Below, piece after piece: positions 19,947-38,635 of a stretch of DNA of 38,635 bases. Source of the DNA: Candidatus Peribacteria bacterium (lineage in GTDB: Bacteria > Patescibacteriota > Gracilibacteria > Peribacterales > Peribacteraceae); the NCBI GenBank assembly GCA_009691405.1, contig SICN01000009.1, positions 1 through 38,635 on the forward strand, given 5' to 3'. The translations under genes were made by a program, and so were the position numbers. Numbering within the stretch: the stretch's first letter is position 1; each line of letters opens with the position of its first letter. The notes below the pieces were generated by a model. It had not been told where the DNA came from. It made no database searches and saw only the letters and a list, made by a program, of their open reading frames with translations.

Positions 19947-19999
19947 ACCTCCGCAGGAGGTTGTCAGCCATAGCCTCGCCGCAGCGAGCGAAGGCTGAC
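19945..19999 (+). repeat. tRNA trailer hairpin plus palindromic repeat, family P1 copy 1
   Basis: Hairpin CAACCTCC(GCA)GGAGGTTG at 19945-19963, then GTCAGCC (19963-19969) pairing with GGCTGAC (19993-19999) around an inner CTCGC/GCGAG stem. The second element shares GTCRGCY, TAGCCT and AAGGCTGA with the copy inside aroA at 38241-38271. Confidence 0.7.
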
Positions 20000-25818: not shown

Positions 25819-25895
25819 TGGTGCGCCCGGCAGGATTTGAACCTGCTACCCCTTGGTTCGAAGCCAAGTACTCTATCCAAATGAGCTACGGGCGC
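25819..25895 (-). tRNA. tRNA-Arg (anticodon TCG)
   Basis: Minus strand: acceptor GCGCCCG/CGGGCGC, D arm GCTC-ATTTGGATA-GAGT, anticodon stem CTTGG/CCAAG around CTTCGAA (TCG), T arm GCAGG-TTCAAAT-CCTGC, encoded CCA. Two partial copies of its 5' half lie upstream. Confidence 0.97.
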
Positions 25896-25896
25896 A

Positions 25897-26092
25897 AGAC
25901 TGCACTCAGCATACATCAAAGAAGCTCTCTTTTCTTTGTTCGTATCGCAGCGCGATACTCAACCCAAATGAGCTACGGGCGCATGTGTACAATCAGCATA
26001 CATCAAAGAAGACCTCATTTCTTTGTTCGCATCGCTGCGCGATACTCAGCCCAAATGAGCTACGGGCGCATGTGTACAATCAGCATACATCA
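25897..26092 (-). repeat. tandem 87-bp repeats carrying the tRNA-Arg 5' half
   Basis: The segment ending in the tRNA 5' end recurs at exactly 87-base spacing: the acceptor/D-arm boundary falls at 25896 (real tRNA), 25983 and 26070. Units 25897-25983 and 25984-26070 share the flank CAGCATACATCAAAGAAG, a TTCTTTGTTCG segment and a hairpin GTATCGC(AGC)GCGATAC (25942-25958, with one change in the second unit). A partial third flank runs to the toxin stop codon at 26090-26092. Each copy keeps 27 bases of tRNA and lacks the anticodon and T arms. Confidence 0.85.
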
Positions 26093-26350
26093 TCGATACA
26101 CATCACGACGATGTCCTATATCGATGATAAGAAAATCCGTCTCAGACAATCGCTTCAGGATGACTCTGTAGTCACCCACTCGCAATCGATGGGTTGCTGA
26201 AGCAAAATCTGTCAGTGGCTTCAGAGCAGATGTAATATCTTGACGTTCTTTGAGTTCCTCCAACTTTGAACGGATTCTTTCCTGGATGCTTTTGTCCAAT
26301 TTAAAAAAATTCTTCTTCGCAAATCGACTGAATGAGAAAGAATTTGACAT
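26090..26350 (-). CDS. RelE/ParE-type toxin
   Basis: 86 residues with the compact RelE-like fold: FSRFAKKNFFKLDKSIQERI, the Leu-rich helix pair, HRLRVGDYRVILKR and IDIGHRRDVYR at the C terminus, the typical arrangement of basic and Tyr residues in mRNA-cleaving toxins. It lies one base after the antitoxin gene. The stop codon falls exactly at the edge of the 87-bp tRNA repeats. Confidence 0.88.
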   Translation of the reverse strand: MSNSFSFSRFAKKNFFKLDKSIQERIRSKLEELKERQDITSALKPLTDFASATHRLRVGDYRVILKRLSETDFLIIDIGHRRDVYR

Positions 26351-35247: not shown

Positions 35248-36237
35248 TTATTGGTACATTTTTTGCATGAGGTAGCAATCGGCAAGCACGAGCGCGACCA
35301 TCGCTTCCGCAACGGGGATAACCCGGGGAACGATGCACGGATCATGCCGTCCTTCTTTTGCGACCTGTCCGATCGAACTCGCGGGTTTGATGCTGAGCGT
35401 GAGGAGAAGAGGCTCTCCCGTGGAAATACCACCAAGCATGCCGCCGAAATTTTTCGGATTCGCCGTATAGTCCTTGCCTTCCATCTCGGCGGTTCCAAAT
35501 CCCGCTCCGTAGCTGAAGCCCGTAACAGCACCAATCGTCATGATGGCTTCCGCAAGCCTTGATTTCAGTTTTCGAAATACCGGATCGCCAAGATTCTTTG
35601 GAGGATGTTCGACACGAATCTCGATAAGGCCCCCGGCGGAATTCCCTTTCGACTTCAGATCGAGAATATACGCAGTCATCTTCTTCGCCACTGCCAAATC
35701 GGCACAGCGAACAGGATTCTTTTCAATGTCCGCGGGTCGGTAAACCCGCGCTACAAAGGACCCGATCTGCTTCGCATGCCCGATAATTTTTACATTCTTT
35801 GGAAGAATCTTCCGCGCAACCACTCCGGCAATCACGCGTGCGACTGTTTCTCTCCCCGACTGCCGTCCACCGCCACGATGATCCCGATGACCGTACTTTT
35901 CGGCAAAGACCTGATCTGCGTGTCCGACTCTGAAGACACTGCGAAGCTTCTCGTAATCCTCCGGGCGCTGATTCTCGTTCGCTACGATAACCGTGATTGG
36001 CATGCCTGTTGTCTTTCCCTCGAACACACCGGAGAGAATAACCGGAGCATCTTCCTCTCTGCGGGAAGTCGTCACCATGCTCTGCCCGGGTCGCCTGCGT
36101 GCAAGCTCAGGAAGAAAATCCTCTTGCTTCAGAGCGATACCCGAAGGGCAACCGTCGATCACCACACCGAGTGCGGTTCCGTGCGACTCACCGAAGGTGG
36201 TGATCGTAAGAAGTGAGCCGAAGGAGTTACTTGCCAT
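35248..36237 (-). CDS. aroC: chorismate synthase
   Basis: 329 residues from ATG 36237. Motifs GESHGTALGVVIDGCP, RRPGQS, GHADQVFAEKYGHRDHRGGGR, and GGISTGEPLLL are all present. It is FMN-dependent, so it relies on the riboflavin genes. A palindromic repeat of family P2 lies in frame around residues 162-171 (FVARVYRPADI), in a region that varies between AroC proteins. The start overlaps the aroDE end by 11 bases. Confidence 0.94.
   Translation of the reverse strand: MASNSFGSLLTITTFGESHGTALGVVIDGCPSGIALKQEDFLPELARRRPGQSMVTTSRREEDAPVILSGVFEGKTTGMPITVIVANENQRPEDYEKLRSVFRVGHADQVFAEKYGHRDHRGGGRQSGRETVARVIAGVVARKILPKNVKIIGHAKQIGSFVARVYRPADIEKNPVRCADLAVAKKMTAYILDLKSKGNSAGGLIEIRVEHPPKNLGDPVFRKLKSRLAEAIMTIGAVTGFSYGAGFGTAEMEGKDYTANPKNFGGMLGGISTGEPLLLTLSIKPASSIGQVAKEGRHDPCIVPRVIPVAEAMVALVLADCYLMQKMYQ
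35727..35754 (-). repeat. palindromic repeat P2, copy inside aroC
   Basis: CGCGGGT(CGGTAA)ACCCGCG at 35731-35750. Minus strand reads GTAGCGCGGGT..ACCCGCGGAC, matching the GYAGCGG..CCGCGG frame of the copies at 12226-12296. It is translated without breaking the frame. Confidence 0.65.
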
Positions 36238-37561
36238 GGAGAGAAGAGGTAAAATGTTCAAATTGCTTCTGTGCCTGATTCACAAGCATTGGCATGCCAT
36301 CACACACACGATACCCCTGTTTCTTTGCATCATGCATGAAAGCGGTTGTTTTTCCGTAACGCAGGTCAATCGCGACAGCGGATTTGGAAGAAGGCTTCGG
36401 AAGAGGAAGCCGAACGTCTTCAGACACGGCACAGATCACAGCATCTGCCTTGAAAGCTATTGCCAAGCGGATCGGCTTGATGACTACGCAAAATTTTTGA
36501 AGCGCTCGTGCTGCCTTTTTTGTGTCGCGTGCGAAGACAGTGATCTTCATGTCCGAATTCAAACGTCGAGCGGCCAGAATGGCTGAGGGAAGGGCTCCAC
36601 CTGCACCGAGGATCGCAATATTCTTCACTCTTTTCAGCTCCGGATAGCCATGCTCGATGCCATAGACATCGGTATTGAACGCGCTGAAGCTGCTACCCGA
36701 TTTAACCAATGTATTCGCAACACCAAGGTTTTCCGTTAGTGCATCATGCTTCTTTGCAAGCTTGAAGGCCTCTTTCTTGAATGGCGCAGTCACGGAGAAG
36801 CCTACGACGCCTATCCTCTGCAGGATTTTGACCGTTCCTTTGAAATCATCCGTTGGAAAACACGAATACAGAGCATCGATCTTGTGCTTACAGAAAAGCG
36901 CATTATGAATTGCAGGACTGAGGGAAGAGCTGATCTGGCTTCCGCCTATAATGCCAAACAGAGCGGGGCTGCTCACTCGCGGCAATGATTGATAGAATGA
37001 TAATGGTAGTTGTCCAACGGCAGAAGGATGGGCTCCGTCGAGGTATGCATAGGTGAAGCAATTTCTGATCGGAGATGTGATTCGAAGAAGATGAGCCTTC
37101 TCACCCATACCCAAAACAGAAGATCGTATACTTTTTTTGTTCAATAAATTCTGCATATCCCAGAGCGCCAGAAGATCGTCGTAGTCAGTGACGTTTGTTG
37201 CCAACTTGATCATCCATGGTTTTAATGAATACATTTTTTGTACAATATTTTTCAATACTGTCAGGGCTGGAGTGGATTTGTAATCATGCATGCTCAGGAT
37301 CATTTTCACACCGGTCGGCAGCAAACGAAGCAGTAAGCATTCAGTCGTATCAAGATCAACGTAGGAAGGTTTGAATTGCTGTATGAAAGAGAGGCCGGCA
37401 CCTCTCGGAGCTACGAGAAGCGGAAGTGGTGAAGCAAATGCCTTTGCATCGGGTGTGATGTCTCCCCGAATTTCAAGAATCTGCGCTCCTGCTCGCTTCG
37501 CCTTCAGTGCGAAAGCTCGAGGATTTTTGGAAGCCAACAGAGGCAGGGTGACGACAAACAT
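36227..37561 (-). CDS. aroDE: fused 3-dehydroquinate dehydratase (type I) and shikimate dehydrogenase
   Basis: 444 residues. Residues 1-200: type I dehydratase with EIRGD (30-34), catalytic His92 in SMHDY, Schiff-base Lys119 in MIKLATN, and the AVGQLPLS substrate loop. Residues 202-444: shikimate dehydrogenase with FGIIGGSQISSSLSPAIHN, catalytic Lys262 in VTAPFKKEAF, Asp298 in FNTDVYG, and NADP loop GAGGA (319-323). It starts two bases after the aroAK stop. The order matches the last two domains of fungal AROM. Confidence 0.94.
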   Translation of the reverse strand: MFVVTLPLLASKNPRAFALKAKRAGAQILEIRGDITPDAKAFASPLPLLVAPRGAGLSFIQQFKPSYVDLDTTECLLLRLLPTGVKMILSMHDYKSTPALTVLKNIVQKMYSLKPWMIKLATNVTDYDDLLALWDMQNLLNKKSIRSSVLGMGEKAHLLRITSPIRNCFTYAYLDGAHPSAVGQLPLSFYQSLPRVSSPALFGIIGGSQISSSLSPAIHNALFCKHKIDALYSCFPTDDFKGTVKILQRIGVVGFSVTAPFKKEAFKLAKKHDALTENLGVANTLVKSGSSFSAFNTDVYGIEHGYPELKRVKNIAILGAGGALPSAILAARRLNSDMKITVFARDTKKAARALQKFCVVIKPIRLAIAFKADAVICAVSEDVRLPLPKPSSKSAVAIDLRYGKTTAFMHDAKKQGYRVCDGMPMLVNQAQKQFEHFTSSLHGK

Positions 37562-37563
37562 GC

Positions 37564-38635
37564 TTATCGTGAATCGGAATGGATGAGGGAACGCAGTGCT
37601 TTGACGGCAAACGGAACCTGAGCGGAGTACCGAAGCTTCGGCGGAATCATGATCGTTGCGACTTCTTTGTAATTGGGTGCGCGCTCCACTAGAAGCTTGT
37701 GCACTTCCTCATGGAGAGGCAAATCGGTGATCGCCGGACGCTTTCCCGATTCCAGTCGTTTAAGAAGTTCTGCCTTCGTGGCTTGCACCCAAATCACCAC
37801 CGCTCGATCTTTGAGCATTGCCCTGGTCTTTTTAGACTCCGTCGCACCGCCACCGAGAGAGACAACGGTTCCTATGTTCAAAAGAGCTTCGATGATTTGT
37901 TCTTCTTTCTCTCGAAACTCCGTCCATCCGTGCGCCGCAATGTATTCCTTGATCGGACCATGCTTTTCCACAAAAACATGATCGCTGTCCTTCGACTTCA
38001 GTTTGAGCTTTGCAGCGAGGCGTCTCCCGAGACTCGACTTCCCTGCTCCGCGCATGCCGACGATGACAATCGGCCTGGGTGATGCGATGACTGCGCGAAG
38101 ATGATCGAAGAATGTCGGATAACTTTTGACCGTGCACTCCGGATCGCTGATCTTGATGTCTCCAATTTTGAGTCCCATAATCGCAAAACACATTGCCATG
38201 CGATGATCATGATGAGGATCCAACAAACAGTGAGTGATGCTTGTCGGCTGTAGCCTTGGCAAAGGCTGAAGCTTTGAGCTTTGAACTGAACCTGCAATCA
38301 CCAGTCCATCTTCATTCTCTTGAATTTCAACACCGACTTTCCGAAGCTCATGTGTGATCACGGCAAGCCGATCGCATTCCTTATGCCGAAGATTTTTGGC
38401 ACCCGTGATCATCGTCTTTCCGTTTCGAAATGCAGCAAGCACCGAAAGATTCATGACCTGATCGGGAATGCCGCTGCAATCGATCGTGACATTTCCGGAT
38501 CGTCGAAGCTTGTGAATGAAATCCGGAAATTTGCTGTCTGCCTGGGAAGAATCTGCACGAAGATTGACGCAGCGAATACGACTTTGCGTGAGTTCGTTCA
38601 GAACAAGCCAGCTACCGGCTGCACTCCAGTCACCT
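37564..38635 (-). CDS. aroA-aroK: EPSP synthase fused to shikimate kinase (5' end beyond the window)
   Basis: The frame is open to the window edge, so the N-terminal part of AroA is missing. Visible AroA features: DWSAAGSWL near the edge, KECDRLAVI, and DPHHDHRMAMCFA with SYPTFFDHL. At about the last 160 residues, shikimate kinase begins: VGMRGAGKSSLGRRLA (Walker A), SLGGGATES and SGKRPAI lid. A palindromic P1 element is embedded in frame in AroA (QSSKLQPLPRLQPTS), before the DHHDHR motif. ATGs inside the window are not the true start. Confidence 0.93.
   Translation of the reverse strand, partial: GDWSAAGSWLVLNELTQSRIRCVNLRADSSQADSKFPDFIHKLRRSGNVTIDCSGIPDQVMNLSVLAAFRNGKTMITGAKNLRHKECDRLAVITHELRKVGVEIQENEDGLVIAGSVQSSKLQPLPRLQPTSITHCLLDPHHDHRMAMCFAIMGLKIGDIKISDPECTVKSYPTFFDHLRAVIASPRPIVIVGMRGAGKSSLGRRLAAKLKLKSKDSDHVFVEKHGPIKEYIAAHGWTEFREKEEQIIEALLNIGTVVSLGGGATESKKTRAMLKDRAVVIWVQATKAELLKRLESGKRPAITDLPLHEEVHKLLVERAPNYKEVATIMIPPKLRYSAQVPFAVKALRSLIHSDSR
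38241..38271 (-). repeat. palindromic repeat P1, copy inside aroA
   Basis: Plus strand TTGTCGGCTGTAGCCT..AAAGGCTGAAG with a central AGCCTT(GGCA)AAGGCT hairpin at 38252-38267. Shares GTCRGCY, TAGCCT and AAGGCTGA with the intergenic copy at 19961-19999. Translates as part of AroA. Confidence 0.65.

Follow-up and report, generated by a model that had tools for sequence, protein, structure and literature searches.

A REP-like palindromic element inserted in frame in the aroA-aroK gene of a Peribacteria bacterium and recurring in genes of related genomes

The window, i.e., the whole stretch of 38,635 nucleotides analyzed here, stops inside a gene fusing the C-terminal part of AroA to AroK (Table 1). 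The EPSP_synthase and SKI domains of Pfam were both found in its 356-aa open frame, which lies upstream of an AroD-AroE fusion (36227-37561). Shikimate pathway genes are thus held by two fusions between positions 36227 and 38634. The dN/dS values obtained in comparison with G001 (about 0.2 for AroA and 0.09 for AroK) indicate purifying selection, and this is therefore not a decaying gene. The aroA part contains the palindromic sequence CTTGTCGGCTGTAGCCTTGGCAAAGGCTGA, composed of CTT followed by GTCGGCTGTAGCCTTGGCAAAGGCTGA, a 27-mer core located at 38243-38269 on the forward strand, where GTGAGTGATG, CTTGTCGGCTGTAGCCTTGGCAAAGGCTGA, and AGCTTTGAGCTTTG directly follow one another. An earlier note on this DNA had placed the palindrome at the right site, but its bounds (38241-38271) were off by 1-2 bases: the complete inserted unit is 30 nt long. 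Since 30 is 3 x 10, the reading frame of aroA is kept and ten codons are gained. The residues added are exactly QPLPRLQPTS, where the note had given a QPLPRLQPTS-like stretch, and the motif that follows them reads DPHHDHR and not DHHDHR. On the strand read in aroA, the element is stop-free in all frames, and the junction peptides expected from the insert include LQPLPR and VFVTGLPAVALAK.

Table 1. Positions of the features described in the window and of the copies of the element in the genome to which it belongs.
Feature	Position	Strand	Remarks
AroA (C-terminal part)-AroK (shikimate kinase) fusion	37564..38634	-	insertion host; AroA cut by the contig end
Palindromic element, 30 nt, within aroA	38240..38269	+	in frame on the - strand
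Heptad array remnant at the insertion point	38270..38291	+	GAGCTTT twice, then GAACTGA once the flanks are joined
Long-apex relative of the aroA palindrome	19962..19999	+	intergenic, after tRNA-Ala
CCTCCGCAGGAGG hairpin	19948..19960	+	adjoins the long-apex copy
Own-genome copy	C1:13275		between mevalonate-decarboxylase-like and HMG-CoA-reductase-like genes
Own-genome copy	C3:4311		inside the dGTPase gene
Own-genome copy	C35:38243		in aroA
Own-genome long-apex copy	C35:19966

Aligning AroA with its relatives confirmed that this is an insertion: the ten codons are absent from both congeners, G001 and G002 (80.6 and 70.3% amino acid identity with the window in BLASTP), and from every other AroA relative aligned. 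The distance from a conserved glycine to the DP.HDHR motif amounts to 25 codons in the window vs. 15 in G001 and 14 in G002, and the sequence left once position 38239 is joined to 38270, GSVQSSKLITHCLLDPHHDHR, comprises 15 codons, the same loop length as in the nearest relative, G001. The element is a precise insertion without any target duplication or loss. Its target, ..GTGATG^AGCTTT, was a heptad-like array before the insertion (GAGCTTT twice). The fact that in-frame heptad arrays also occur in the same AroA loop in G026 (L041), G050 (L042), and G022 (L045) marks this loop as a repeat-tolerant site. The heptads in these three genomes are CGACCAG, AACCAAA/AACCAGT, and AAACCAG, respectively.

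In the genome to which the window belongs, three copies were found at up to 3 mismatches, in addition to the long-apex copy (Table 1). The resemblance proposed in the earlier note between the aroA palindrome and that after tRNA-Ala, at GTCRGCY, TAGCCT, and AAGGCTGA, was borne out. As the apex of the tRNA-Ala copy is about 9 nt longer (GCCTCGCCGCAGCGAGC vs. GCCTTGGC), it is a longer subtype. The composite formed by this copy and the adjoining hairpin has a single-strand fold z of -4.8, and a comparable composite adjoins an element in the relative G035 (L033). Elsewhere in the window (25858-26118), three tandem 87-nt repeats start inside tRNA-Arg(tcg) and include partial tRNA copies.

Members of the element family were identified at up to 3 mismatches in 35 of the 115 related genomes. 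Zero matches to the 27-nt pattern were expected from shuffles of the window, and the reversed pattern gave none in the 115 genomes; chance resemblance is therefore excluded. In a phylum-wide sample, 15 of 192 genomes carry the element. Candidate-phyla genomes harbor from 1 to 14 copies each. Among the 99 copies tabulated, about 90 belong to the Peribacteria group, and at least 41 of these lie, by our own count, within Pfam-supported ORFs; copies occur both within and outside genes. The element-bearing genes encode dGTPase, Obg, LysRS, another aminoacyl-tRNA synthetase, transketolase, GMP synthase, adenylate kinase, NusA, DnaK, PilB, POR, a Mur ligase, formyltransferases, MltG, and UvrD, among others. 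In NusA, four copies were found over three genomes. One nusA gene (L037) carries two copies in its C-terminal part, both in frame and 93 nt apart. Aligned with PDB sequences, Obg and adenylate kinase show about 10 extra residues at the element, and AroA, dGTPase, and LysRS show gaps there that are less sharply defined; in GMP synthase the element lies in an unaligned stretch. Insertion of this element into genes is a recurrent event across the family.

The clearest case is that of the dGTPase. In G000 and G001, this protein shares the stretch GLPAVALAKAG, corresponding to an exact insertion of 30 nt (10 aa) without target duplication at ..GTT ACA GG^T CAT.. (or ..TCG GG^A CAT..). The insert is absent from G002 and from most of the other relatives aligned, which read VAGHGDH or a similar sequence. 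In G029, the same loop is occupied by a copy that was inserted independently and the other way round (AGLRQGYGRQ); removing its 30 nt yields VAGGSDH, which is the sequence of the empty site in G017. The dGTPase of G033 (L177) carries a different repeat-like peptide, STLRLRSGQAQLTTS, in this loop, which is probably the product of a second family of translated palindromes. These cases show that insertion is precise, involves no target duplication, can occur in either orientation, and has hit some loops repeatedly.

The family consensus, CYTGYCGGCCGTAGCCTTGGCGAAGGCYGR, is exactly 30 nt long, and the structure conserved over it, ....((((((.(.(((..))).).)))))), is a long imperfect hairpin composed of a YC-R-GCC / GGC-Y-GR stem, a GTA/GAA mismatch zone, and a GCC/GGC apex, with a single-stranded CYTG in front. 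In the set of 48 distinct copies used to analyze covariation, this hairpin showed 39 doubly changed cells vs. 7.8 +/- 5.1 in shuffles, and a covariation score of 0.296 vs. 0.129, which was reached in 0 of 500 shuffles. No breaks were found in column pairs 5-30 (UA/CG/GC/AU/UG) and 7-28 (GU/CG/GC/AU). The long imperfect hairpin with its compensatory changes is the conserved feature of the element. For the aroA copy, the folding program preferred on energy the short hairpin AGCCTT/AAGGCT; this hairpin shows no covariation and was for that reason not accepted as the conserved structure. The motif GTAG (GTAG or GAAG) is conserved and yet internal to the hairpin supported by covariation, and an alternative hairpin starting at GTAG showed no covariation. 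When the flanks of all the copies were joined, a periodicity of 7, 14, and 21 nt was restored (z = 4.7, 5.3, and 5.6). This is what exact 30-nt insertion into heptad arrays should give, and such arrays make up many of the targets; the permutation mean was, however, also exceeded at periods 6 and 8 (z = 3.8 and 3.9). About 10 of 89 copies are located at the tip of inverted repeats with a score of at least 6, and KG is preferred directly before the insertion junction.

Besides the named Peribacteria/Peregrinibacteria genomes that carry it, the exact 27-mer was found in Verrucomicrobia (Opitutaceae and others), a Geomonas, and an alphaproteobacterial MAG; no exact match was found in viral contigs. 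Verrucomicrobia carry up to 41 copies per genome, with similar compensatory variants. In G279 (L264-L273), ten identical copies of the palindrome are contained in a larger composite repeat, most units of which also include a second palindrome (GACCACCGTAGCTTTAGCGAAGGTGGT) and thus resemble a MITE. This recent-looking amplification was followed as a lead to the mobilizing gene, but what is repeated is the larger composite, and no such gene was found there.

All in all, we take the aroA feature to be one inserted copy of a REP-like palindromic mobile element (probability about 0.9). The element would move as single-stranded hairpin DNA, and an enzyme of the HUH/Y1 type (RAYT or IS200/IS605-like) acting in trans would cut and join it next to ..KG^. 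Its exact insertion without duplication, the single-stranded 5' tag of its hairpin, and the KG preferred before the junction resemble single-strand transposition of this type. Members of the IS200/IS605 family insert without target duplication. TnpAREP cleaves REP hairpins as single strands, the form in which IS200/IS605 elements also transpose (PMC8266576). Copies entering genes would survive where the ten residues sit in a tolerant surface loop; the effect of the insert on AroA is thus probably neutral or near neutral, and the element would be a selfish sequence that has come to be translated.

Since the cognate gene was not identified in the genomes scanned, we can only infer enzymatic mobility in trans, and we hold this step to be somewhat probable. 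Approximately 31 Y1-transposase loci were scanned in the family, and none has the element beside it; a RAYT profile based on family members detected no RAYT near element loci. The Y1 transposases encoded in the same genome as the window, L068 (IS200-like) and L069 (RAYT-like), were considered as mobilizers and rejected, the element being absent from both loci. The single-contig genome G029 carries five copies of the element and no PF01797 gene. Within the family, the co-occurrence of the element with PF01797 falls short of significance (24/31 vs. 23/37, p = 0.2), whereas that with RAYT over all 115 genomes is (p = 0.002); being significant in the wide set and not within the family, it is confounded by kinship. 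At a verrucomicrobial RAYT locus (L223), two variant copies are present about 400 bp upstream, among other repeats, which makes a weak case. In another genome, the RAYT gene at L158 (G067:C25) is flanked by GTAG REPs of a different, classical kind (GTAGCAGCGATTCGAAAATCGCTG), two of which share a strand while the third is on the opposite one. Together they look like a complete REPtron from a candidate phylum.

The main rival to enzymatic mobility is copying of the element by template switching during repair or replication, or by hairpin gene conversion, with heptad arrays and inverted repeats as hot spots and without any dedicated transposase. The fact that no transposase flanks the element in the candidate-phyla genomes scanned fits this process, as do the copies of G029, which occur without PF01797, those located at inverted-repeat tips or in heptad arrays, and those of G279, amplified within a larger composite. 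However, an enzyme recognizing the ends would account for the KG preferred before the junction and for insertions that begin and end exactly at the 30-nt unit, with nothing duplicated or lost at unrelated targets, and we regard template switching as rather unlikely. It is much less probable that the element has been domesticated, its ten residues or an mRNA hairpin serving the function or regulation of aroA. The intact aroA under purifying selection would agree with such a role, and so would the dGTPase insert, kept in G000 and G001 despite a nucleotide divergence of 22% between the two genes. Yet the proteins that carry inserts are very different, as are the orientations and frames of the inserts, the AroA and dGTPase of near relatives do without them, and the element is no better conserved than many gene segments (91 of 1122 windows are equally conserved). 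The idea of an ordinary ancestral AroA loop resembling an intergenic palindrome by chance draws on the variable length of the loop before DxHHDHR, which is long in some distant relatives (L060, L057), but it is refuted by the congeners, which lack the ten codons at the exact boundaries of the element, and is hardly compatible with the presence of the 30-nt unit in unrelated proteins or with exact membership in a family giving 0 control matches. An assembly chimera or decayed pseudogene, which the contig end (38635) near the truncated aroA might suggest, is just as implausible in view of the open frame with both its Pfam domains, dN/dS values far below 1, and the occurrence of the phenomenon in many independent assemblies, including one single-contig genome.

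A sequence-identical element recurs in the reduced genomes of candidate phyla and in Verrucomicrobia, in core genes whose sites are clean and empty in near relatives. This recurrence, together with the empty sites, makes two questions directly testable: how a palindrome is inserted precisely, and how frequently mobile DNA supplies peptide loops to essential enzymes. The element also explains odd peptides recurring in predicted proteins of these groups, such as SAFAKATADK, GLRQGYGRQA, and LPAVALAKAG. Our literature search yielded no paper on REP-like palindromes or RAYTs in candidate-phyla genomes, nor any on one identical element common to the candidate phyla radiation and Verrucomicrobia.

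Several known systems resemble the element in part. As with heptanucleotide tandem repeats, in-frame arrays occur in the aroA loop of relatives, and the element often lies inside such arrays; the heptads are, however, its target or neighbor and not the element itself. With IS200/IS605 insertion sequences and their MITE derivatives it shares hairpin ends and the mode of insertion, the 30-nt units of dGTPase and aroA having been inserted exactly, after KG and without target duplication, but it differs from them in being only 30 nt long, with a single hairpin and no transposase gene nearby.

Protein-coding palindromes were reportedly first thought to be a peculiarity of Rickettsia and were later extended to some REPs. 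The likeness to Rickettsia palindromic elements (RPE-4/RPE-6, RPE-1) pointed out in the earlier note holds in kind: short palindromes are found in frame in many unrelated, conserved coding genes, are absent from the homologs, also occur between genes, are open in several frames, and probably lie in surface regions that tolerate them. This is not a strict RPE, however, since the sequence is another one, measures 30 nt, has no CGTC at either end of the consensus, and is hosted by Peribacteria-type candidate phyla and Verrucomicrobia instead of Rickettsia. The description of the element as a REP-like, protein-coding palindrome, in kind as RPEs, is supported. As for its novelty, which the earlier note had put forward for a genome of this type, such palindromes outside Rickettsia had already been published in the form of GTAG REPs (PMC3733652), and what is unreported in the literature found is their occurrence in candidate phyla.

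According to Di Nocera and colleagues (2013; PMC3733652), RPE-4/RPE-6 are CGTC REPs, GTAG and CGTC REPs both occur inside genes, and Opitutus terrae is the species richest in intragenic GTAG REPs. The present element resembles GTAG REPs in its imperfect hairpin, which at 30 nt, covarying and in many copies, falls within their 20-40 nt range, as well as in its conserved mismatches, its internal GTAG motif, its copies in and outside genes, and its presence in Opitutaceae, relatives of O. terrae. It differs from them in that CYTG is the end tag and GTAG internal in the covarying structure, and in that it does not flank the RAYT genes of the candidate-phyla genomes scanned. It thus belongs with the REPs by class, with an end tag that is apparently another one, and may yet correspond to one of the families GTAG-17 to GTAG-20 of O. 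terrae. It may, tentatively, represent a third class of REP-like tags: a CYTG-tagged unit specialized in entering genes that always preserves the frame because it measures exactly 30 nt, with nearly half of its copies translated in conserved enzymes, and passed by an enzyme between candidate phyla and Verrucomicrobia.
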